This document shows, piece by piece, positions 7,157 through 20,770 of a stretch of DNA of 32,837 nucleotides (position 1 is the first letter of the stretch; every line of letters starts with the position of its first letter). Position numbers and translations under genes: made by a program. Origin of the DNA: Caldilineaceae bacterium. GTDB lineage: Bacteria; Chloroflexota; Anaerolineae; Caldilineales; Caldilineaceae. Below the pieces are notes generated by a model. It was not told the DNA's origin. It made no database searches and was given only the letters and a program-made list of their open reading frames with translations. The stretch is taken from the NCBI GenBank assembly GCA_023384495.1, contig JAHDWG010000023.1, positions 1-32,837 on the forward strand, in the 5' to 3' direction.

Positions 7157-8332
7157 TCAATTGACCCCGGCCAGGTCTGGCTCTTTGTTGTCCATCTCGA
7201 CGAACTTGCCGGTGACGGTGTAGATGATTCGCTCGCAGATGTTGGTGGTGCGGTCTGCGGCGCGCTCCAGATTGTGCGCCGCCCATGAGAGATAATTGGC
7301 GTGGTCGATAAGCTTGGGGTTGGCGACGATGATGTCGATCAGCTCGCGATTGATCGTGTTGTAGAGCGCATCGACCTCGTCATCCTGGTTGGGGATTTGG
7401 CGCGCCTGCTCCACATCCTGCGCCACAAACGCATCGAGCGAAGCGCGCAACATACGGACGACAATGTCGCACATCTGGGGCATATGCACCAGCGGCTTGA
7501 CCAACGGCTCGCGCCCAATGTAGAGCGTAATACGCGCAATGCCCTTGGCGTAATCACCGATGCGCTCCAACTCGGAGGCGATCTCCAGGATGCCGGCAAT
7601 CAGACGCATGTCGCGCGCCATGGGCTGCTGCGTGGCGATCAGCGTCAGACACGCATCCTCAATGGCGTAGCGCTTCTGGTTGATCAGCCGATCATCGGCG
7701 ACCAACTGGCGCGCCTGGTCGAGATTCTGCGCCTTTAGGATTTCGATTGAACTGTGTAGCGCCTGACAAACCACACTGCCCATGAGCAATAGTTCGTCTT
7801 GTAGACGCCGCAATTCTTGCTGATAGTGCACTCGCATGGAACTCTCCGTCCCGGACGGGCGACCGGGCAGCGTGATGGATGATGGAGAAGCGCTGGCCTG
7901 ACCGGCAGGCGGAAACGCTTGTTGCAAATATAGTAACACACTTTTCCGAATTTTGTCACGCACGCGCCGAAAGACCTTGAGCTGCTCGTCGAGGCGACCG
8001 CTGGCCAGGGCCGGGTCTTCAAAGCCAATATGCACCTTTTTCCCCTTGCCCAACCAGACGGGACAATTCTCGGCGGCATCGTCACAGACGGTGATCACTA
8101 GGTCAAAGTCCTGGCCCACAAACTCCTCGGTGGACTTGGAGCGGTGGCGCGAGAGGTCGATCCCAAGTTCGGCCATCACCTCAATCGCCAGCAGATGCAC
8201 ATAGCCCGAAGGTTTGGTGCCCGCCGACTGGGCATGCCACTGGTCGCCGAGAAAGTGGTTGATCAGCCCCTCCGCCATTTGGCTACGACAGGAGTTGCCC
8301 GTACAGAGGATGAGAACGCGTCGTTTGGTCAT
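7157..8332 (-). CDS. arsC-phoU: Arsenate reductase-PhoU fusion protein
   Basis: This 391-residue protein joins two usually separate functions. Residues 1-140 are a thioredoxin-coupled arsenate reductase of the low-molecular-weight phosphatase fold. It has the P-loop CTGNSCR with C10 and R16, the redox pair C83 and C90, and acid D106 in EDPA, matching C10, C82, C89 and D105 of the staphylococcal enzyme. A linker rich in Pro, Ser and Gly (about 141-165) leads to PhoU (166-391), with both three-helix repeats and the acidic motifs ELERIGD and NLERAAD. PhoU restrains the Pst transporter and PhoR signalling when phosphate is ample. There is no stop codon between the domains. A Shine-Dalgarno (GGAGAG) sits 4 bases before an in-frame ATG at 7837 (M166), so free PhoU may also be made. 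It is the last gene of the pst operon, 6 bp after the aquaporin. Confidence 0.93.
   Translation of the reverse strand: MTKRRVLILCTGNSCRSQMAEGLINHFLGDQWHAQSAGTKPSGYVHLLAIEVMAELGIDLSRHRSKSTEEFVGQDFDLVITVCDDAAENCPVWLGKGKKVHIGFEDPALASGRLDEQLKVFRRVRDKIRKSVLLYLQQAFPPAGQASASPSSITLPGRPSGTESSMRVHYQQELRRLQDELLLMGSVVCQALHSSIEILKAQNLDQARQLVADDRLINQKRYAIEDACLTLIATQQPMARDMRLIAGILEIASELERIGDYAKGIARITLYIGREPLVKPLVHMPQMCDIVVRMLRASLDAFVAQDVEQARQIPNQDDEVDALYNTINRELIDIIVANPKLIDHANYLSWAAHNLERAADRTTNICERIIYTVTGKFVEMDNKEPDLAGVN
7835..7847 (-). promoter_or_regulatory. Internal ribosome binding site and ATG for PhoU alone
   Basis: Within arsC-phoU the minus strand reads GGAGAG (7847-7842), TTCC, then ATG (7837-7835), in frame with the fusion and exactly at the start of the PhoU domain. 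It suggests either a second translation product or the relic of two genes fused by loss of a stop codon. The 4-nt spacing is short but workable. Confidence 0.5.
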
Positions 8333-8338
8333 TGGGCT

Positions 8339-8989
8339 TCACTGCTCCTTTCGAGTCAGGCCAAATCCACCCACCGCCAGCGCAGCGCCGAGCAACGGCG
8401 CCACCATATAGAGCCACAGCGCCGCCAGATTGCCAGACACGAGCGCAGGCGCCAGTGAGCGCGCCGGGTTCATGGATGCGCCTGTAACTGGCCCGCCAAA
8501 GAGCGCATCGAGACAGACTGTGGCGCCGATGGCCAGCCCAGCGGTAATCCCGCGTTCTTTGGCGCCCGTCGCCACATGGATGATGACAAACATGAGAAAA
8601 AAGGTCAACACAATCTCCAACAAGAAGGCGGCCCAGATCGCCACAGATGGCGCCGGTATGGTGGCCCCAAGCGTAGCGTCGCCGGGGAATGCGCCCCGCA
8701 ATGTGAGGCTGGCAAGCAACGCGCCGGCCACCTGGCTACCTACATACGGCGCCACCTCTCGCAGAGGGAAGCGCCCCGCCAGCCAAAAGCCAAACGTGAC
8801 CGCGGGATTGAAATGCGCCCCTGAGGTTTCGCCAACTGCATAGATCATCACCATGACCACTAGCCCAAAGGTAAGCGCAATGCCTACGTGCGTCACCGCG
8901 CCCTCGCTGGCCGCATTGACGACAATCGCGCCAGTGCCGGCAAAGACCAGTGCAAAGGTCCCTACAAACTCCGCCCAATATCGATTCAT
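8339..8989 (-). CDS. Aquaporin (MIP family channel)
   Basis: This 216-residue inner-membrane channel has six hydrophobic segments and both pore motifs, HFNPAV (NPA at 61-63) and MNPARS (NPA at 174-176). Aligned by eye to E. coli AqpZ, the selectivity positions are F41, A162, A171 and R177. The His that narrows water-specific pores is Ala here, which suggests a wider pore that could pass small neutral solutes such as As(OH)3 or glycerol (inference). It lies between pstB and the arsC-phoU fusion. A comparable pairing of aquaporin and ArsC in Sinorhizobium meliloti (AqpS) exports arsenite produced by arsenate reduction. I chose the ATG at 8989, which gives the usual N-terminus MNRYWAEFVGT; an in-frame GTG at 8998 would add three residues. 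Neither has a strong ribosome site. Confidence 0.9.
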   Translation of the reverse strand: MNRYWAEFVGTFALVFAGTGAIVVNAASEGAVTHVGIALTFGLVVMVMIYAVGETSGAHFNPAVTFGFWLAGRFPLREVAPYVGSQVAGALLASLTLRGAFPGDATLGATIPAPSVAIWAAFLLEIVLTFFLMFVIIHVATGAKERGITAGLAIGATVCLDALFGGPVTGASMNPARSLAPALVSGNLAALWLYMVAPLLGAALAVGGFGLTRKEQ

Positions 8990-9085
8990 AACCACCACAA
9001 GCTCATTAGATGACAGATGGATGTCGGATCAAACCACCTGTGTTTGATGCAACCATTGTTGATGTGAAAGCAGCAACTGCGCCTC

Positions 9086-9901
9086 TTAACCAAAGCGGCC
9101 CGTTATATACTCTTCAGTCTTTTTGTGTTGCGGGTTGGTGAAGAGCTGCTTGGTGGAGCCGAATTCCAACAAGTGGCCGGTGCGATGTTCGTCGACCATA
9201 AAGAAGGCGGTATAATCTGAGACGCGCGCGGCCTGCTGCATGTTGTGCGTCACGATGATGATGGTGTAACGCTCGGCCAGTTCCTTCATCAGGTCCTCGA
9301 TCCGGAGTGTGGCGATGGGGTCTAGCGCCGAGCATGGCTCATCCATGAGGATGATGTCGGGGCGGGTGGCGATGGCGCGGGCAATGCAGAGCCGCTGCTG
9401 CTGGCCGCCGGAGAGGCTGTATGCGCTCTGGTTAAGCTTGTCCTTGACTTCATCCCACAGGGCGGCGGCGCGCAGCGATTGCTCGACCAGCTCGTCCATG
9501 TTGCCCCGAAAGCCGTTGACCCGCGCGCCCCAGGCAATATTCTCGTAGATCGACTTGGGGAAGGGGTTGGGCTTCTGAAAGACCATGCCGATCCGCCGTC
9601 GCACCTCAACTGGGTCAACCTGCGGGTCGTAAATGTTAAAATCTCGGAAACGCACCTCGCCACCCACGCGCGCCGATGACACCAGGTCGTTCATGCGGTT
9701 GAAACAGCGCAAGACGGTGCTTTTGCCACACCCCGACGGCCCGATCATCGCCGTGATCTTGTGCTCCTCAATGTTCATATTCACATCGCGCACGGCATGA
9801 AAGCCGCCGTAGTGGACGTTCAAATCAGCCGTTTCGATGATCATCTTGCCCAGATGAGTGGCTGACTCGGGTCGATCCGCCACAAATGTTGCAATTCCCA
9901 T
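9086..9901 (-). CDS. pstB: Phosphate ABC transporter ATPase PstB
   Basis: PstB is the cytoplasmic ATPase that powers phosphate import. All motifs are present: Walker [11 protein letters not shown]-loop VFQKPNPFP, signature [14 protein letters not shown], Walker [14 protein letters not shown] and switch His VTHNMQQA. The C-terminal EYITGRFG is typical of PstB. The ATG at 9901 (MGIATFVAD) has AAGGAG 11 bases upstream; the longer frame would begin with TTG at 9925 inside the pstA stop region. From the ATG the protein is 271 residues, about 20 longer at the N-terminus than E. coli PstB. It follows pstA with 20 bp between, so the two are almost certainly co-translated. Confidence 0.97.
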
Positions 9902-9921
9902 AGTAACAGACACTCCTTCAA

Positions 9922-12036
9922 TCAAAGCTGCTTGCTAAACCGGTTGCGCAGCAGGATGGCGCTGGCGTTTAGCGACAGCAACAGAACCAGCAACACTACA
10001 ATCGCCGCCGCCGCAATGTTGCGAAATTCGGGTTGGGGCCGCGAAGTCCACTGGTAGATCTGCACCGGCAAGGTGGTGAACTTCGAGAAAGGCCCGTTGG
10101 GGTCGAGCGCGACAAAGGTGGATGCGCCCACCACCACCAACGGCGCCGTCTCACCAATGGCGCGCGACATGGCGAGGATGTTGCCGGTGAGGATGCCGGG
10201 GATGGCGTTGGGCAACACGTGCGCCCAGATCACCTGCCAGCGCGTGGCGCCCAGCCCAAAACCCGCCTGGCGCAGCGAATCGGGCACGGCGCGGATCGCC
10301 TCGCGCGCATTGATGATGATCAGCGGCAGCACCAAGAGCGCGAGCGTCAGGCTGGCCGAGATGACTGTGCGCCCGTTGGCCGTGGTGGGGTCCACCGCGC
10401 CAAAGAGTTTGCCGCTGGTAAAAGGCTCAAAGGTGCGCACAAAGACGGCCAACCCCAACATGCCATAGATAATCGAAGGGACGCCGGCCAGGTTGTTGAT
10501 GTTGGTTTCGATAAAGCGGTTGACCCGGTTGTCCTCGGCATACTCCTCCAGATAGATGGCGGCGCCCACCCCCACTGGCAGCGCAAGGAGGAGTGTAAAG
10601 AGGATCACCCACAGCGTGCCCATAATGGCCGGGCGGATGCCTGCGCTCTCGGCCCTGGCGTCTTGGGGCGAGGTGAGAAAGCGCATCGAGACCCAACTGC
10701 GCCACGTAAGCTCGCCATTGGGGATCAGAGCAACGGCGGCCTCGATCTGCGGGCGGCGCAGCAATGAATCGGTAAGTGACCATGAGCGCACCGCCGTCGG
10801 CTGCACCACGCGCTCCAACACCAGCTCATAGAGATTCTCGCGCGTGCGCTCGGCAAAGGGCTGGTCATTTTCAAAACGGCGCATAAGCCCGCTGGAGACA
10901 TTGGCGGCCAAGACTTCGATCAGCGTTTCTTTGGGCAGTTCGCTCAGTTCGCGGGCGTAGACGCGCTCCACAAAGAAGTCGAGTGTGCCGCTGTCGCTGC
11001 CTGGGATATAGCGCACGATCGGCTCGTTGGGCCAGGCCGGGTTGACATCGGACCAGCGCTCCGCCGTCATAAAGACTTGACGAAGCGCATCGGCGCTCAG
11101 GTTGGTGACAAAGGTGTTCTCCCGGTGAACCACCACAGCCAGCGCGTCAAAACCCACCTCGAATTCCAGCGGCTCACGCTTGGCGCTGCGGCAGATCTCG
11201 ATTTCGGCGCGGGTGATGGCGCGGCTGGCATTGGCAATGTCCACCCCCGCGTCGTTGCAGAAACGGGCAATCCCCGCCTTGGTGCCGATGTTGTCGATCT
11301 GGACTGCGCCGGCAAAGCCGGCGGCCTGAAATTGATCGGCGGCCTGCTTCGTCAGCGGATAGACCGTGGAGCTGCCGGCAACGACAATGTCACCATCCAC
11401 AGCGCTTGGGTCTGCCAGGGGAATCACGGCGTTTTGCAGCGCGGCCTTGCCTTCGGCGATGTCGGCGTCGGTGGTCGGGAAATAGCCGACTTCGCCTGCA
11501 AGCGCTGGGGCATTGGTCAAGTAGTGATCGACAAATGCGGCGACTTGTGGCTTTTGTTGCAGAGTGGCCGCGGTCGAGTAGATATAGAGCGGGCGAGAAA
11601 GCGAGTATGAGCCGTCATCCAGTGTTGCCAAACTGGGCGTTACCCCATCCACTGCGACCAAATTGAGCTCGTCGGCGAGCGCTTGATAATAGGCATAACC
11701 GAAGAAGCCGACGGCATAAGGGTTTGCCATCACACCGGCGGCCAACTCGTTGTCGTCTTCGCTGGTGGTGATATTGAGCGCATCTAGCATATTTTGCTCT
11801 TCCACCGCCAGCACGATGGCGTCTGGGTCCACCTTGTTCTGCACAGCGACAAAGCCAAAGGCGCCATCAATAATGTTGTAAAGGAGCGCGATGAGGGCGA
11901 CGATCCCAACCAGGGTAGACGCAACAAAAACAGTATACCAAAACTGGCCACGTCGCTGACGCTCGCTGACTTGCCTCTTTGCCACTTCGCCTTCGGGATA
12001 GCCGGTCGCTTCTGGCCTGCGTGTCTCCATCGCCAT
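9922..12036 (-). CDS. pstA: PstA permease with an inserted, circularly permuted PstS domain
   Basis: This 704-residue protein compares with about 300 for classical PstA. Residues 34-60 are membrane segment 1. Residues about 470-697 carry the remaining segments and the ATPase-coupling EAA motif ([19 protein letters not shown], 578-596). Residues about 363-460 resemble the extra segment of Chloroflexota-type PstA. Between about 76 and 362 lies a whole phosphate-binding domain related to the neighbouring pstS, but in swapped order: the C-terminal half comes first (FFGYAYYQ at 111-118, KPQVAAF at 162-168, VGYFP at 183-187) and the N-terminal half second ([10 protein letters not shown] at 220-229, NASRAI at 269-274, PGSDSGT at 345-351). 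All phosphate-contact loops are intact. The domain should face the extracytoplasmic side as a tethered second receptor. The start overlaps the pstC stop by one base and has GAGGAG upstream. Permease identity is firm; receptor function of the insert is inferred. Confidence 0.95.
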
Positions 12037-13043
12037 TATTGATACTCCTCTCGGAAGCGGGCCACGAGAATCCGGCTTAGGATGTTGAGGCCAAAGGTGA
12101 TCACAAAGAGCACAAGCCCAATCGCAAAGATGCTGCTATAGTCGATGGTGTCATAACTCAAGTCGCCGCCACTGATGCGCACAATATGCCCGGTCATGGT
12201 CTCGGCGGCCACAAAGGGGTTGAGCGTGAAATTTGGCCCGGCGCCGGCGGCAATCGCCACCACCATCGTCTCGCCCACCGCGCGCGAGATGGCCACGATC
12301 ACCGCCGCCGAGATGCCAGAGAGCGCCGCCGGCAACACCACCCGCAGCGCCGTCTCTAGCCTCGTGCCGCCCAGCCCATAGGCCGCCTCGCGCAGCGACA
12401 TGGGCACCGCACGCAGGGCATCCTCGCTCATGGAGGTCACCAACGGCAAGATCAGAATCCCAATGACCAGTCCAGCCGATGCCGTGTTATAGATTTGCAC
12501 AGTCTCGTAGCCAAAAATTGTGCGCAGGAAAGGGGTCATAAAGGTCAGCGCAAAGTAGCCGTAGACAACCGTAGGGATGCCGGCCAGCACCTCAAGGATC
12601 GGCTTGAGCGCGCCGCGCACCCGAGCACTGGCATACTCGCTCAGATAGATGGCGATGGCCAATCCAACCGGCAGGGCAAAGAGCATGGCAATGAAACTAG
12701 TGACCAGGGTGGCCGTCACCAAGGACCAGATGCCAAACTGCCCGATCACCGGCTGCCAGCGCGTGGTCAAAAAGAATTCACCCAGGGTGACCTCGTCGCT
12801 CCCAAAAAAGAGCCACGATTCCCGACCCAGCACATAGATAATGCCAATCGTAGTCAACACCGAAACCGCGCCACACACAAACAGAAAACCTTGGATTAGC
12901 GCTTCGCCGATGCGGATTTTTTTGTGCAAACCCAGGTCCCCTGGTCCACCGATTGTCACGTGCGCCGCCGCTGGCTGGTCTGCCCGGCCTGGGGCGGCGC
13001 CGGCAGACGGCAGCGTGGCGGTTTCAGCTCGCAGATCACTCAC
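12036..13043 (-). CDS. pstC: Phosphate ABC transporter permease PstC
   Basis: This 335-residue inner-membrane subunit pairs with PstA to form the phosphate channel. A hydrophilic, Ala/Pro-rich N-terminus of about 40 residues precedes the first helix (about 48-72). A periplasmic loop follows, then the core helices with the EAA coupling motif ([19 protein letters not shown]). The GTG start at 13043 has AGGGAG 6 bases upstream. The stop codon overlaps the pstA start (TAATG), pointing to coupled translation. Unlike PstA, it carries no inserted domain. Confidence 0.96.
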
Positions 13044-13222: not shown

Positions 13223-14263
13223 TTACTCGCCGAGTGCGGCAACCCAGTTCGCCTTGGCCTCGTCCAGCGCCGCCGCCGGCGCCGGGAAGTAGCCGACCCC
13301 ACGAATCTCTTCGTTGACATAGGTCAGGTAAAAGTTGATGAAGGCGGCCACCTGCGGCTTGTCTTGCATGATCTGGGCGTCCGAATAGATGAAGATTGGG
13401 CGCGCCAGCGGATAGAGGCCAGCGTCTACGTTGTCAGTGGTGGCCTCGACATCATTCAGCGTGAGGATGTCCAGCCGGTCTGCATTCTCCTGGTAGTAGG
13501 CATAGCCAAAGTAGCCAATGGCGTTGACATCGCCTTCCACACCCTGCACCAGCACATTGTCATCTTCACTCAACTGCAGATTCGCCGCGCTCAGGTGCCG
13601 CTCTTCAGCCAGCTCTTTATAAGCCGGCGTCATCACCGCTTCGACAAAGTAGTCGAATGTACCGCTGTCGGTGCCGGGAATGAAGCGCAGGATCGGCGTG
13701 TCGGGCCAGCTTGGGTCCACATCAGACCAGTTCGTGGCTTCATCCGAGAAGATGACCGCCAGTTGCTCAAGAGTGACGCCCGCGTCAAGCCAATCATTGT
13801 TGGGGTTGACCACCACAGCTAATGCATCCGTGCCGATGCGGAACTCAATGGGTTCGCGACCAATGGCGCGGCAATTCTCGACCTCGCTGTCGCGAATCGC
13901 GCGGCTGGCGTTGGAAATATCCGATTCACCAGCCTTGCAGAAGCGCTCGAAGCCGGCGCCCGTGCCGATGCTGTCGATGGTGATGTTGCCGGCGTAGCCC
14001 TCGTCGCGAAAGCGGGCGGCCACGGCCTCGGTCAGCGGGAAGACGGTGGAGCTGCCGGCGGTGATGATGTCACCCGTCACCTCCAGCGGGTTGACTTCGG
14101 GCAGTTCGCTATCCACCATCGCGGCTGCTTCAGCGGCTGGGGCTTCGGCAGGGGGCGTTGTTGCCTGGGCGGCGGGGGCGGCGGGGGCGGCGGGCGCAGG
14201 GGCCGCACAGGCCGCTACCATCAGCCCGACGAGCACCAGCAACATCAGAGCATGACGACGCAT
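13223..14263 (-). CDS. pstS: Phosphate-binding lipoprotein PstS (SphX-like)
   Basis: This is the extracytoplasmic phosphate receptor of the Pst system, 346 residues. The N-terminus is a lipoprotein signal (MRRHALMLLVLVGLMVAAC, lipid Cys at 19). An Ala/Pro linker of about 35 residues follows, then the binding domain. Phosphate-loop motifs are AGSSTVFPLT, SNASRAI and PGTDSGT; the C-terminal half has [16 protein letters not shown] and VGYFP. The same motifs, in swapped order, occur inside PstA. I chose the ATG at 14263 because it has AGAGGAG upstream and begins the signal peptide; the open frame extends 53 residues further without such support. It is first in the pst operon, downstream of Pho-box-like repeats. 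Confidence 0.96.
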   Translation of the reverse strand: MRRHALMLLVLVGLMVAACAAPAPAAPAAPAAQATTPPAEAPAAEAAAMVDSELPEVNPLEVTGDIITAGSSTVFPLTEAVAARFRDEGYAGNITIDSIGTGAGFERFCKAGESDISNASRAIRDSEVENCRAIGREPIEFRIGTDALAVVVNPNNDWLDAGVTLEQLAVIFSDEATNWSDVDPSWPDTPILRFIPGTDSGTFDYFVEAVMTPAYKELAEERHLSAANLQLSEDDNVLVQGVEGDVNAIGYFGYAYYQENADRLDILTLNDVEATTDNVDAGLYPLARPIFIYSDAQIMQDKPQVAAFINFYLTYVNEEIRGVGYFPAPAAALDEAKANWVAALGE

Positions 14264-14417
14264 ACGAATTTCTCCTCTTTTTTCACTCATTTTGTTCATG
14301 TTGGACCATTGTTCCTGTTGGGCCGCCGATTCAACAGCGCAGTGTCGATGTCCGCATACATGCGCCGATTCGGCAATCAATGCCAGAATCAATGTCAGGT
14401 AACTGTGACGCATGAAA

Positions 14418-14439
14418 AGCATAAAGGGGTTCAGTTAAC
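14418..14439 (-). promoter_or_regulatory. Candidate pstS promoter: TTAAC unit plus -10
   Basis: Minus strand: TTAAC (14438-14434), a 10-bp spacer, then TATGCT (14423-14418; 4 of 6 to TATAAT). The 10-bp gap equals that between Pho box and -10 in classical Pho promoters. The leader to the pstS ATG would be about 150 nt. Confidence 0.35.
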
Positions 14440-14477: not shown

Positions 14478-14519
14478 GTAAACATTTGGTTAAGACAGCA
14501 TCGTTAACCATTTGTTAAC
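14478..14519. promoter_or_regulatory. Pho-box-like direct repeats, divergent
   Basis: Read on the minus strand, TTAAC-like units begin at 14518, 14507, 14493 and 14482 (TTAAC, TTAAC, TTAAC, TTTAC): two pairs, each with 11-bp spacing, separated by 14 bp. PhoB-family regulators bind 11-bp direct repeats. The first two units lie in GTTAAC palindromes, so they can be read in either direction, which suits a shared divergent site. Confidence 0.6.
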
Positions 14520-14667
14520 ATATACCCTCGTTTCCATAACACTTGCAAGGCATCTCCTAACATCCCCTTTACCAAACCATAATCGTTGTCTTGTATGGTG
14601 GAAGAGTGACGCATTCGGGCCTGCCACCAGCCCAGGGCGCCGCGCAGTGTGGTCTCCGTGTTGCACA

Positions 14668-14697
14668 ACTTGACCTGTAGGAACTTGACGTGAAGGA
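14668..14697 (+). repeat. 15-bp tandem repeat carrying the ribosome site
   Basis: ACTTGACCTGTAGGA (14668-14682) is followed directly by ACTTGACGTGAAGGA (14683-14697), with two mismatches. The second copy supplies the AAGGA Shine-Dalgarno of the gene starting at 14706. Confidence 0.55.
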
Positions 14698-14705
14698 AGA
14701 GAAGA

Positions 14706-15320
14706 ATGGATATGGCCGCCGTACGTGGAGCGCAACCGTTGTACAAATTGCCAAAACAGATCGAGCGCGCCCTAAACGGCGCGCTCTTGCCAGGCCGGCG
14801 CATCCTCATTGAACAGGTCGCGGCGCAGCGCACACCGAAGCGCGTCTTGGTCATCGGCCAGTGGCGTGCGGCCGATCTCGATCATATGCGCGAGTCGTTT
14901 CCCCGCGCCCGGTTTACGCTGATCGCACCAACGGCTGAGCACGAGACGGCCGGCCACACATCCCCCACTGAAACCGACGCCACGCGCTGGCTGGCCGGCC
15001 CCTACAGCCAACCGGTGAAGACAACCCACCCCTTCGATGTCGCCTTCTTGGCCTATGGGCTTGGCCGCAGCCAAATGGATGTGGACGCCATCATTACCGC
15101 CCTTCAAACCGATCTACGCCCCGGTGGCCTTGTGGCGGTTGTCGATTTCCATGACGCGCCTTTGGCGCCCATGCAGGCATGGCTGCGTCGCTGTGCAATT
15201 GAAGCGAACGGCCACCTGCTGCCAACCCTAACCACCCACTTCAAGCGCAGCACCATTGCAGTCGAGGGTGCGCACGGCGGGCTGTGGCGCTATCTTCTGT
15301 TTCTCGGTGAAAACCGTTAA
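14706..15320 (+). CDS. Methyltransferase-like protein (class I fold), function uncertain
   Basis: This 204-residue soluble protein has a Rossmann-type pattern. A first strand ends VLVIGQW (near 47-53) where SAM methyltransferases have a GxGxG motif, a later strand reads FDVAFLAYGLGRS, and LRPGGLVAVVDFHD near 136-149 is the classic post-motif of UbiE/BtaB-like methyltransferases. The SAM glycine motif is degenerate and an acidic ribose ligand is not obvious, so it may not bind SAM normally. The C-terminal part loosely recalls lipid headgroup methyltransferases, but no BtaA partner is present. It is first in a rightward operon behind Pho-type repeats, followed 26 bp later by the PHP gene. AAGGAAGAG just upstream supports the ATG. 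Fold moderately sure; activity unknown. Confidence 0.65.
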   Translation: MDMAAVRGAQPLYKLPKQIERALNGALLPGRRILIEQVAAQRTPKRVLVIGQWRAADLDHMRESFPRARFTLIAPTAEHETAGHTSPTETDATRWLAGPYSQPVKTTHPFDVAFLAYGLGRSQMDVDAIITALQTDLRPGGLVAVVDFHDAPLAPMQAWLRRCAIEANGHLLPTLTTHFKRSTIAVEGAHGGLWRYLLFLGENR

Positions 15321-17488: not shown

Positions 17489-18121
17489 ATGATGCAACCG
17501 GCGTCGGTATTCCGTACCGACCATGACGCCACCAACTCACCTACAACCCGAAGCCGCCGTGTGGCCTACTGGGTTTCACAGATTGCCAGCCCCCCCGTGT
17601 TGGGGGTGGCTGTGACCATGGTGGCGGCCGCGGCGCTGGCTACGCCAGCGGCGTGGCTATGGTCTGTCATCTATCTTGTGTTGGCGATCGGCGTGCCCTG
17701 CCTCTACATTGTCTGGCTTGTGTGGCGCGGCGAGCTGGCGGATGTACACCTACCCGTCCGCGAGCAGCGCATTCGCCCCATGCTCTGTGCGGTGGGCGCC
17801 GCCCTGGCCGCCTGGGTGGTGCTCAATCTGGCCGCGGCCCCGCGTTTGTTGCAATCCATTGCCGCCGTCAACAGCGTGCAATCTCTGCTCTTTGTCCTCA
17901 TCACGTTGCGCTGGAAGATCAGCCTGCACACAGCCACGTCGGCAAACCTGACCGTGCTGGGGCTGGGCCTGATGGGCAGCCCCGCGCTGCCGCTGGTGGC
18001 GCTGACGCCGCTGGTGGCGTGGGCGCGCATTCAACTGCAACGGCACACACTAGGGCAAACCTTTGCAGGGGCCACGCTGGGCGCGACGCTGGTCATTGCA
18101 GCATTGTGGTATGTTGCTTAA
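17489..18121 (+). CDS. PAP2-like membrane protein with degenerate active site
   Basis: This 210-residue integral membrane protein has about five or six hydrophobic segments. Its layout matches PAP2 lipid phosphatases: REQRIRP near 90-96 where the family has KX6RP, SLH near 146-148 where it has PSGH, and ARIQLQRHTLGQ near 183-194 where it has SRX5HX3D. The key His survives, but the final Asp is Gln and other residues differ, so catalysis may be weak or altered. An active enzyme would convert phosphatidic acid to diacylglycerol, the acceptor of the preceding glycosyltransferase, and release phosphate. AAGGAAAGG upstream supports the ATG; an ATG follows immediately. The stop codon lies inside the first Pho-box unit at 18118. 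Confidence 0.65.
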   Translation: MMQPASVFRTDHDATNSPTTRSRRVAYWVSQIASPPVLGVAVTMVAAAALATPAAWLWSVIYLVLAIGVPCLYIVWLVWRGELADVHLPVREQRIRPMLCAVGAALAAWVVLNLAAAPRLLQSIAAVNSVQSLLFVLITLRWKISLHTATSANLTVLGLGLMGSPALPLVALTPLVAWARIQLQRHTLGQTFAGATLGATLVIAALWYVA

Positions 18122-18171
18122 CATACTCTTAACTTGCCGTTGTGACTGCGTTAACAACAGCCAATTACACT
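18118..18171 (+). promoter_or_regulatory. Pho box of four 11-bp units with -10
   Basis: Units start at 18118, 18129, 18140 and 18151: TTAAC, TTAAC, TTGTG, TTAAC, each followed by 6 bp, exactly 11 bp apart. TACACT (18166-18171; 4 of 6 to TATAAT) begins after a 10-bp gap, the spacing of classical Pho promoters where PhoB replaces the -35. A start site near 18178 is predicted. The first unit overlaps the stop codon of the PAP2-like gene. Confidence 0.65.
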
Positions 18172-18177
18172 GTGGAT

Positions 18178-18300
18178 GGTTGCGCAGCATTCTGGGGAGC
18201 TGAACACTCGCAATCCATCCTCTTTTCCAATTACCTCGATCCCACCCTCCTTCACACAGGGGTGCGCCTTGTAGCCGGGCGCACCCCTGTGTATTTTTTG
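18178..18300 (+). ncRNA. Candidate phosphate-responsive small RNA
   Basis: A transcript from the Pho-box promoter would start near 18178 and end at the terminator near 18300, about 120 nt, with no open reading frame of note and no gene inside. It could also be a terminated leader that regulates phoB-phoR. Ends are inferred from promoter and terminator positions; no known RNA family is recognised. Confidence 0.35.
18254..18300 (+). terminator. Strong rho-independent terminator
   Basis: A 15-bp perfect stem (ACACAGGGGTGCGCC at 18254-18268 with its complement at 18278-18292) with a 9-nt loop is followed by ATTTTTTG. It ends the rightward operon and any transcript from the Pho box at 18118. Confidence 0.85.
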
Positions 18301-18533
18301 CACATGCGCGGGCTTGCTACACGGCGGTTGCCTTGAAAACACGCATGAGGGGCCGGCCAGGGCGGCAAAGCAACGCGCATTTTCGAGCAGAGCTGAGGAT
18401 GAATGCAGCCCGGCAGACTTGCGCGCTTGCCCCTTTGCGTGGATACTCACAGCGTGTGTGAAGGTTGCCCGGCGTCGTGGGTTGCTCTCGGTTTGACGTT
18501 GCCGGCAAACATTTTTTGATGCAGGGGGCGGTC

Positions 18534-19256
18534 GTGAATCCAAAAGTGTTGGTCGTTGAAGATGAGCCGGCGCTGGCTGATGCGCTGGAGTACAGCCTGT
18601 CGCGCCAGGGGTATGAAGTGAGCGTTGCCGGCGATGGGGTCAAGGCGCTGGAGATGGCTCGTCAGACGATCCCCGATCTGGTAGTGCTCGACATCATGCT
18701 GCCTCATCTGGATGGCTATGAGGTCTGCCGCATCCTACGCCAGGAGACAAACGCGCCGATTATCATGTTGACGGCGCGCGCCGATGAGGTTGACAAGGTG
18801 GTGGGTCTCGAAGTTGGCGCCGATGACTACCTGACCAAACCCTTTAGTATGCGCGAACTGATTGCCCGCGTCAAGGCGCTGCTGCGCCGCGTCCGTCTCG
18901 ACCGTGAAGAGATGGCGACGACCAGCACCCCCAATGGTCACCCCGATGTGCCCACCGAGCGTATGGTTTTTGGCGACCTGGTCATCGATCTGAGCCGTCG
19001 CGAGGTTTCATTTGGCGGGGGGGCGTTCCATCTCAAACCAAAAGAGTTCGACCTTCTGGTCTTTCTGGCGCGCAACCGGGGCATCGTGCTCAGCCGAGAC
19101 CTGATCCTCGAACGGGTGTGGGGCTGGGACTACGACGGCGGCAGCCGCACGGTGGATGTTCACGTGCGCTGGCTGCGCGAAAAGATCGAAGCGGACCCCG
19201 CCAACCCCACACGCCTGGTCACTGTCCGCGGGATCGGATACCGGTTTGAGGGGTGA
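18534..19256 (+). CDS. phoB: PhoB-type response regulator (OmpR family)
   Basis: This 240-residue transcription factor has a receiver domain (about 4-120: E9, D10, phosphoacceptor D53, T80, K102) and a winged-helix DNA-binding domain (about 140-238), with the recognition region ending [15 protein letters not shown] and RGIGYRFEG at the C-terminus. This is the PhoB/RegX3 arrangement. Phosphorylated by the kinase encoded next door, it should bind the 11-bp TTAAC repeats here and at 14478-14519. I chose the GTG at 18534 because AGGGGG lies 5 bases upstream; an in-frame ATG at 18519 lacks a ribosome site. The phosphate role is inferred from the pst operon, the Pho-type repeats and the PhoR-like partner; the family itself is certain. 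Confidence 0.88.
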
Positions 19257-19272
19257 GCTTTGAAACCAAGAT

Positions 19273-19301
19273 TTGACAGATTACAAGAATCATTGTATTC
19301 C
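19273..19301 (+). promoter_or_regulatory. Possible separate promoter for the phoR-type kinase
   Basis: A perfect TTGACA (19273-19278), a 17-bp spacer and a weak TATTCC -10 lie in the 113-bp gap between the regulator and kinase genes. The weak -10 keeps confidence low. Confidence 0.3.
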
Positions 19302-19369
19302 AGTAGAGGTCACAGATGGTCGTCTTCGGAACCGACCTCGTCGAATAGAAGAAACACAGCCCAACCAAA

Positions 19370-20770
19370 ATGCTTCACTCACCGCGCCTGCGGTGGCGCA
19401 CCGCATTCTCCTATGCCGTCGTCATTGCCCTGATCCTCACGGGGTTGACCTATTATCTCTCTGCGCGGTTTGACATTCCGCCAGGGCAAGCTGCGCGCCC
19501 TGTGGCAGTGGCCGGCCTGTTGATTTCTGGGTTGATGGTCTTCCAGGCCGAGCGTGCGGCGGCCACCGTGCGCCGGCTTACGCTAGTGGCGCATCGCATT
19601 GCCCAAGGCGACCTGGATGCGCGCATCATTTCGTTGAGCAGCGGCGAGATCGGCCAGCTTGCCCGTGCGTTCAACCGTATGGCCGACCGGCTGCAAAAAC
19701 AGATCGAGAAGCGCAACCGCGAGCGAGACCGGCTGGACACGGTGCTCCACGCGCTGAACGATGGCGTGCTGATCATCAACCGCCATGGCGAGGTTCGGCT
19801 GATCAACAGTGCGGCCGAACGCATCCTCCAGGTGACAGCCACCGTCGCACGCGACCGCACCTTTATCCAGGCGGTGCGCGACCACCGCATCGTCGAGGTT
19901 TTTCAGCGTTGCCTGCAGAGCGGGCATGAAGAGAACGCCATGTTGGAGCTTGAGGGCGGACGGATGCTGCGCGTGGCGGCGACGCCCTTTCTCCGTGGGC
20001 GGCAGCGCGGGCATGTTGTCATCCTACAAGATTTGACGCAGCTCTACCAGTTGCAGACTGTGCGCCGCGATTTCATCAGCAACATCTCTCACGAATTACG
20101 CACACCCGTCGCCTCGCTGCGCGCCCTGGTCGATACCCTGGCCGACGGCGCGATCGATGACCCGCCCGCCGCCCAACGCTTCCTTTCTCGTATGGATGTA
20201 GAAGTGGAGGCCATGGCGCAAATGGTGCAAGAGCTATTGGAGTTGGCGCACATTGAGTCAGGCCAAACACCGCTGCGGCTACGCGAGTTGCCCGCCACCG
20301 AGGTCGTTGGCCCAGGCGCTGAACGGCTTCGCCCCCAGGCCGAACGGGCGGCCATTTCATTGACCATCGACTCACCGGAAAAGCTGCCTTCGATTGTGGT
20401 AGACCCGGATCGCATCCAACAGGTCATGGCCAATCTCGTGCAAAACGCGATCAAGTTCACCCCTGCCGGGGGCGCTATCCACGTCCAGGTAGAGCATCAC
20501 CCTGACCGAGGCGAATTGGTGGTTGCCGTGTGCGACACAGGCGCGGGCATTGCGCCCGATGATCTCTCGCGAATCTTTGAGCGCTTCTACAAGGCCGACC
20601 GCGCCCGCTCGGGGGAAGGCGCCGGCCTGGGATTGGCGATTGCCAAACACATTGTGCAGGCGCACGGTGGGCGGATCTGGGCCGAGAGCACTTATGGCAA
20701 AGGCAGCAACTTCTATTTCACCCTCCCCACCACGTCTCCGGCAGAGGTCCCCATCGCCCCCGCCGTATGA
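19370..20770 (+). CDS. phoR: PhoR-type sensor histidine kinase
   Basis: This 466-residue inner-membrane kinase has two hydrophobic segments (about 12-31 and 44-58) with almost no extracytoplasmic loop. HAMP (about 60-113) and PAS (about 122-225) follow, then the phosphotransfer domain with H241 in SHELRTPVASL and an intact ATPase domain (NLVQNAIKFTP, CDTGAGI, GAGLGLAIAK). The short loop, PAS domain and lack of an external sensor fit PhoR, which reads phosphate status through contact with Pst and PhoU rather than a ligand. The partner regulator ends 113 bp upstream. The ATG has no clear Shine-Dalgarno. Phosphate function is inferred from context. Confidence 0.87.
   Translation: MLHSPRLRWRTAFSYAVVIALILTGLTYYLSARFDIPPGQAARPVAVAGLLISGLMVFQAERAAATVRRLTLVAHRIAQGDLDARIISLSSGEIGQLARAFNRMADRLQKQIEKRNRERDRLDTVLHALNDGVLIINRHGEVRLINSAAERILQVTATVARDRTFIQAVRDHRIVEVFQRCLQSGHEENAMLELEGGRMLRVAATPFLRGRQRGHVVILQDLTQLYQLQTVRRDFISNISHELRTPVASLRALVDTLADGAIDDPPAAQRFLSRMDVEVEAMAQMVQELLELAHIESGQTPLRLRELPATEVVGPGAERLRPQAERAAISLTIDSPEKLPSIVVDPDRIQQVMANLVQNAIKFTPAGGAIHVQVEHHPDRGELVVAVCDTGAGIAPDDLSRIFERFYKADRARSGEGAGLGLAIAKHIVQAHGGRIWAESTYGKGSNFYFTLPTTSPAEVPIAPAV

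Follow-up and report, generated by a model that had tools for sequence, protein, structure and literature searches.

In the window, the whole 32,837-nt stretch of Caldilineaceae DNA analyzed here, an arsenate reductase gene (arsC) and phoU share a single reading frame as the last gene of a pst operon. We consider it likely that a pst operon equipped with an arsenic module lost the arsC stop codon, that co-expression of the two genes was selected, and that their covalent link is tolerated and specific to the lineage. The shared arsC-phoU operon is widespread and has probably been selected, and the fusion, which is rare, may add little to it. The fused gene and its parts are located as follows:

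7157..8332, minus strand: fused gene arsC::phoU, identified by its open frame, domain matches and predicted fold
7919..8332, minus strand: ArsC domain, residues 1-138, with C10, R16, C83, C90 and D106 (Pfam, NCBIfam, solved structures)
7838..7918, minus strand: linker, residues ~139-165, predicted to be disordered at 144-161 (AlphaFold2 pLDDT) and open in three frames
7844..7847, minus strand: GGAG, a possible Shine-Dalgarno sequence 6 nt 5' of Met166 (duplex energy -6.6 kcal/mol)
7835..7837, minus strand: ATG of Met166 inside the frame, where PhoU canonically starts and from which free-standing PhoU proteins align
7193..7837, minus strand: PhoU, residues 166-380, with two repeats and the motifs ERIGD and ERAAD (TIGR02135, motifs)

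The frame runs from ATG to TGA over 391 amino acids with zero internal stops, so the uninterrupted ArsC-PhoU frame proposed in an earlier, sequence-only reading was confirmed in strand, coordinates and content. Pfam recognized an LMWPc domain at residues 6-131 (E 2e-20) followed by two PhoU repeats (E 2e-41). AlphaFold2 predicted two confident domains, with the residues between them (144-161) at pLDDT below 50; the pTM of 0.58 fits two bodies without a fixed orientation, and a fixed domain interface is not apparent in the model. The linker, proposed earlier as a flexible stretch of 25 residues, indeed seems flexible and is about that long, but its boundaries had to be corrected to ~139-165, with Met166 as the PhoU start.

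The ArsC domain was matched by TIGR02691, the NCBIfam model of thioredoxin-type ArsC, at residues 7-132 with 126 bits; as this is under the cut-off of 174.3, we call the domain thioredoxin-type by its residues only, outside that equivalog. The CX5R loop is present (C10, R16), and so are the second and third redox cysteines and the aspartate of the DP motif (C83, C90 and D106-P107; C82 and C89 are the pI258 counterparts of the cysteines). All catalytic residues named by the sequence-only reading were therefore found, and C10, R16, C83, C90 and D106 are identical in 43/43 pst-linked ArsC sequences. Solved structures close to the domain are 1jl3 and 1ljl. From these residues we infer that the domain would perform thioredoxin-coupled arsenate reduction. 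It is the second reductase of the genome, since a separate arsI-arsC-arsD-arsA-acr3 cluster is present on another contig (C122; locus L144, G000:C122:1-4658).

The C-terminal part is a full two-repeat PhoU, as had been claimed: TIGR02135 covers residues 169-378 with 190.7 bits, over its cut-off of 130.25, and both repeats carry the metal-site motif E-x-x-x-D (ERIGD at 256, ERAAD at 356). A close solved structure is 1t72. The genome, a Chloroflexota MAG, yielded no PhoU other than the fused one, which is encoded together with pstSCAB. The order of genes in the window is pstS-pstC-pstA-pstB-MIP-arsC::phoU, with the fusion last, and the genes before it are:

13223..14422, minus strand: pstS (TIGR02136, 240 bits, over cut-off)
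12036..13043, minus strand: pstC (TIGR02138, 259 bits, over cut-off)
9922..12036, minus strand: pstA, containing a PstS-like domain as a circularly permuted insert (TIGR00974, over cut-off)
9086..9925, minus strand: pstB (TIGR00972, 393 bits, over cut-off)
8339..8998, minus strand: MIP channel, a possible arsenite exit, with an ATG at 8989 (PF00230; two NPA motifs)

For pstS, the ATG at 14263, which GAGGAG precedes, is the likelier start. No arsR was found in the pst operon, as the ORFs from pstS to phoU all belong to other families; a small ORF at 14504-14854 matched no family searched in Pfam or NCBIfam. The insert in PstA is permuted with respect to the adjoining PstS: residues 80-198 of PstA resemble PstS 273-391 (46%), and 202-370 resemble PstS 104-274 (49%). 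Long versions of pstA were also seen in several relatives (e.g., L035, L037, L067 and L137), and others match only partly.

The selectivity filter of E. coli AqpZ is F-H-T-R. Spacing relative to the NPA motifs, with AqpZ as reference, gives F-A-A-R as the filter residues of the window MIP, and its pore would be wider than that of AqpZ. In genus g6, a sister genus of the same family (genomes G005 and G032), acr3 occupies the place of the MIP gene:

L068 5607-6713, minus strand: acr3 inside the pst operon of genus g6, between pstB and arsC
L071 2759-3865, plus strand: acr3 inside the pst operon of genus g6, between pstB and arsC

The g6 operon thus combines phosphate uptake with a built-in reductase and exporter. 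An acr3 gene in this position suggests that the window MIP may serve as an arsenite exit, even though membership of the MIP family alone is no proof of arsenite transport. In some ars operons MIPs are known to stand in for pumps (PMC4435449).

Upstream of pstS, and before a gene for a PhoB-like regulator, we found 11-nt-phased repeats that resemble Pho boxes:

14503..14519, plus strand: repeat GTTAACCATTTGTTAAC upstream of pstS, resembling a Pho box and phased by 11 nt, exact match
14478..14494, plus strand: second, weaker repeat GTAAACATTTGGTTAAG, 2 mismatches
18117..18133, plus strand: Pho-box-like repeat before the PhoB-like regulator, 2 mismatches
18465..20770, plus strand: PhoB-like response regulator (18465-19256) and PnpS/PhoR-like kinase (19370-20770), NCBIfam, family level

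The unit of the repeats upstream of pstS is GTTAAC. Sites with up to 2 mismatches occur three times in the window, compared with 0.37 expected. In relatives (window excluded), sites of the form TTAAC-N6-TTAAC are enriched upstream of pstS, with 5/7 in 2.7% of the bases. Cyanobacterial Pho boxes are repeats of CTTAACCT that are bound as 8-bp units separated by 3 bp (PMC1906773), and the 11-nt phase is common to them and the window repeats. By its putative upstream Pho-box repeats the window operon would belong to the Pho regulon, and the repeats before pstS and the PhoB-like regulator imply that ArsC is most likely made whenever phosphate is scarce. Some 4 kb separate the regulator and kinase genes with their repeat (18117-20770) from the pst operon; as both proteins score below the NCBIfam equivalog cut-offs, their putative PhoB/PhoR identity holds at the family level only.

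To place the fusion among its relatives, 85 Chloroflexota genomes were read, at loci chosen by similarity to the window protein. An arsC directly upstream of phoU, fused or separate, was present in 40/85, a share that exceeds chance but, owing to the choice of loci, is not a phylum average. The two genes are separate in 36 of these 40 genomes and fused in four, namely the window and 3/9 species of the distant genus g27; arsC was located downstream of phoU in one of the 85 and was not nearby in 44. In many relatives pstS-pstC-pstA-pstB is followed by arsC and then phoU, and the gap from the arsC stop to the phoU start ranges from -17 to 257 nt, most commonly 38. A 400-genome sample of Chloroflexota gave no further full-length fused match, and none of the plasmid records searched spans both the ArsC and the PhoU half. 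G003 and G032 had appeared fused from open-frame lengths and were rejected, as their DNA shows stops. The two-domain architecture sought in relatives is thus found in three g27 species but not in the 36 genomes with separate genes; the opposite outcome, separate genes in all relatives, was nearly, yet not fully, observed. In the PhoU tree the window adjoins an unfused PhoU without arsC (G010, locus L033) and g27 falls in a remote clade; the fusions are therefore independent, with two stop losses.

Other arrangements of arsC were also seen in pst operons. Two arsC-phoU pairs follow pstB in tandem in G066 (L075 2732-5033), two different arsC genes stand in tandem between pstB and phoU at L034 2018-2864, and at L133 1514-1927 arsC is located between pstS and pstC.

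The spacer between arsC and phoU in genus g27 indicates what a fused linker may encode. All nine g27 species (L087-L089, L090-L095) share TTGAYC-17 nt-TAYCAT, then AGGAGGGG, then ATG before phoU, whereas elsewhere the spacer differs both in sequence and in length. The conserved bases look like a dedicated phoU promoter and ribosome binding site (RBS). In the three fused species the promoter-like bases, AGGAGGGG and the ATG are all kept inside the linker, where they double as codons. When these three were compared with each other, the ratios of non-synonymous to synonymous changes were 3:1, 2:0 and 3:1 in the linker and 2:9, 5:14 and 7:17 in PhoU. As the linker changes are mostly non-synonymous, no protein-level constraint on the linker is visible in these small numbers. 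In g27 the fused product is probably made alongside free PhoU and does not clearly replace it.

In the window, a duplex as stable as that of the GGAG sequence (-6.6 kcal/mol) is reached at 9% of internal codons, so that it gives weak evidence only for an internal RBS; as a significant feature by itself this RBS was rejected. A promoter-like match near the 3' end of arsC (7959-7930, minus strand) is of low quality, with 9/12 matches. A structured linker RNA, or a hairpin hiding the Shine-Dalgarno sequence, was also rejected, because folding was no better than that of shuffled sequences.

Arsenate gets into cells by mistake via phosphate transporters. In the sequence of events that we propose, arsC and phoU, the last two genes of the operon, would have merged into one frame when the arsC stop was lost. 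Phosphate starvation would induce the operon through a PhoB/PhoR-type system, and the induced Pst transporter would admit some arsenate. The ArsC made at the same time would reduce it at C10 via the C10-C83-C90 thiol cascade with thioredoxin, and arsenite would leave through the adjacent MIP channel or through Acr3, encoded at a separate locus of the genome. Ribosomes starting at arsC must yield the ArsC-PhoU polypeptide, and PhoU alone might also be made from Met166.

Two alternatives question the gene itself or the identity of its first domain. It is improbable that the fusion is an artefact, with a MAG consensus that miscalls the arsC stop or is chimaeric and genes that really are separate. 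Such an error would be favored by the source, a single assembly that is split into 764 contigs and has 8% contamination; the window fusion is known from this MAG, which is the sole genome available for its genus, and near relatives are unfused. However, the other two frames are open through the linker as well, and their first stops come at nt 596 and 639, past the PhoU ATG at nt 496 (counted from the ArsC ATG). A single-base indel error can therefore not yield the fusion from two closely spaced genes, and a frameshift artefact was rejected as its origin after the stops were listed in the three linker frames and none was found; a substitution miscall exactly at the arsC stop codon could still produce an apparent fusion. 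The contig, moreover, reads as one coherent pst operon, and arsC-phoU is also fused in the three separately assembled g27 genomes. On its one MAG, the window fusion is probably real. That the N-terminal domain is a low-molecular-weight phosphatase acting on a phosphate-signaling protein, and not an arsenate reductase, seems very unlikely, even though the LMWPc fold is common to tyrosine phosphatases, the TIGR02691 cut-off is missed, the context is pst and not ars, without arsR, and a second ArsC sits in a real ars operon of the same genome. Phosphatase models reached only 24.7 bits, compared with 126 for the ArsC model; C83 and C90, which the thiol cascade but not a phosphatase needs, are invariant in 43/43 pst-linked copies, and the sister genus has the acr3 arsenite pump adjoining.

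A third alternative assigns a function to the covalent link: with PhoU as its tether, ArsC would be stationed at Pst, or PhoU control of Pst/PhoR would respond to arsenate or to the redox state of thiols. Both domains are intact, ArsC and PhoU were fused twice independently and the fusion is kept in three g27 species, and known ArsC fusions pair functionally linked partners (PMC6205960). Nevertheless, we regard this as unlikely, because 36/40 genomes with the pair leave it unfused, the g27 linker is unconserved as protein and doubles as phoU promoter and RBS, and the window linker is predicted to be disordered, with a pTM of 0.58 and no apparent fixed domain interface. The sequence-only reading had tied the reductase to phosphate uptake, and this part stands, given the pst operon, the Pho-box-like repeats and the MIP or Acr3 alongside; that the covalent link matters does not follow, as most pairs are unfused. 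For its further suggestion that arsenate or redox state controls PhoU, we found nothing pointing that way, and such control through the fusion is possible but unsupported. In its specific form, a two-domain regulator in which ArsC turnover or thiol oxidation alters the hold of PhoU on Pst/PhoR, it appears quite doubtful; if true, incoming arsenate would directly throttle phosphate uptake. Stop loss in a co-expressed operon is the reading we prefer, and the separate pairs, the two independent origins and the unconserved g27 linker point to the fusion as its probable by-product. Persistence of the fusion in three g27 species means that some benefit or coupled function is possible.

Arsenic resistance is usually described as arsenic-induced via ArsR. 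In many Chloroflexota the reductase, in some genera with an arsenite exit protein, is located inside the phosphate-scavenging operon itself, which suggests that arsenic protection is deployed ahead, whenever high-affinity phosphate uptake switches on. Rare fusions of this kind offer a natural test of whether joining ArsC and PhoU in one molecule brings any gain.

In the open-access literature we found no report of an ArsC-PhoU fusion or of arsC within pst operons. ArsC fusions with other partners are already known, namely AqpS-ArsC (Salinispora tropica), Acr3-ArsC (Mycobacterium tuberculosis), ArsR-ArsC and ArsN-ArsC (PMC6205960); as in these, a small ArsC is joined in-frame to a partner encoded adjacent to it in many relatives, but the partner in the window, new by this search, is the phosphate-uptake regulator PhoU and no arsenic protein. 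The ArsC domain resembles thioredoxin-type ArsC of S. aureus pI258 and B. subtilis (PDB 1jf8, 1jl3) in C10-X5-R, N13/E21/S36, the spacing of 7 between cysteines two and three and the DP motif, and differs in its diverged sequence (126 bits, with the cut-off at 174) and in its fusion with PhoU. Like the PhoU of other pst operons (TIGR02135; PDB 1t72, 1xwm, 2i0m), that of the window is full-length, has two repeats and ends the operon, but it bears an N-terminal ArsC. In AqpS-type ars operons (Sinorhizobium meliloti; PMC4435449) a MIP gene is also next to arsC and replaces the pump, whereas the window MIP, a putative arsenite channel, is part of a pst operon in a genome that also has acr3. Phosphate uptake and arsenic genes are physically linked in arsenic islands too, where pst operons adjoin ars or aio genes (PMC3834237; PMC5930303); here, in contrast, arsC, together with MIP or acr3, is located between pstB and phoU, without arsR.
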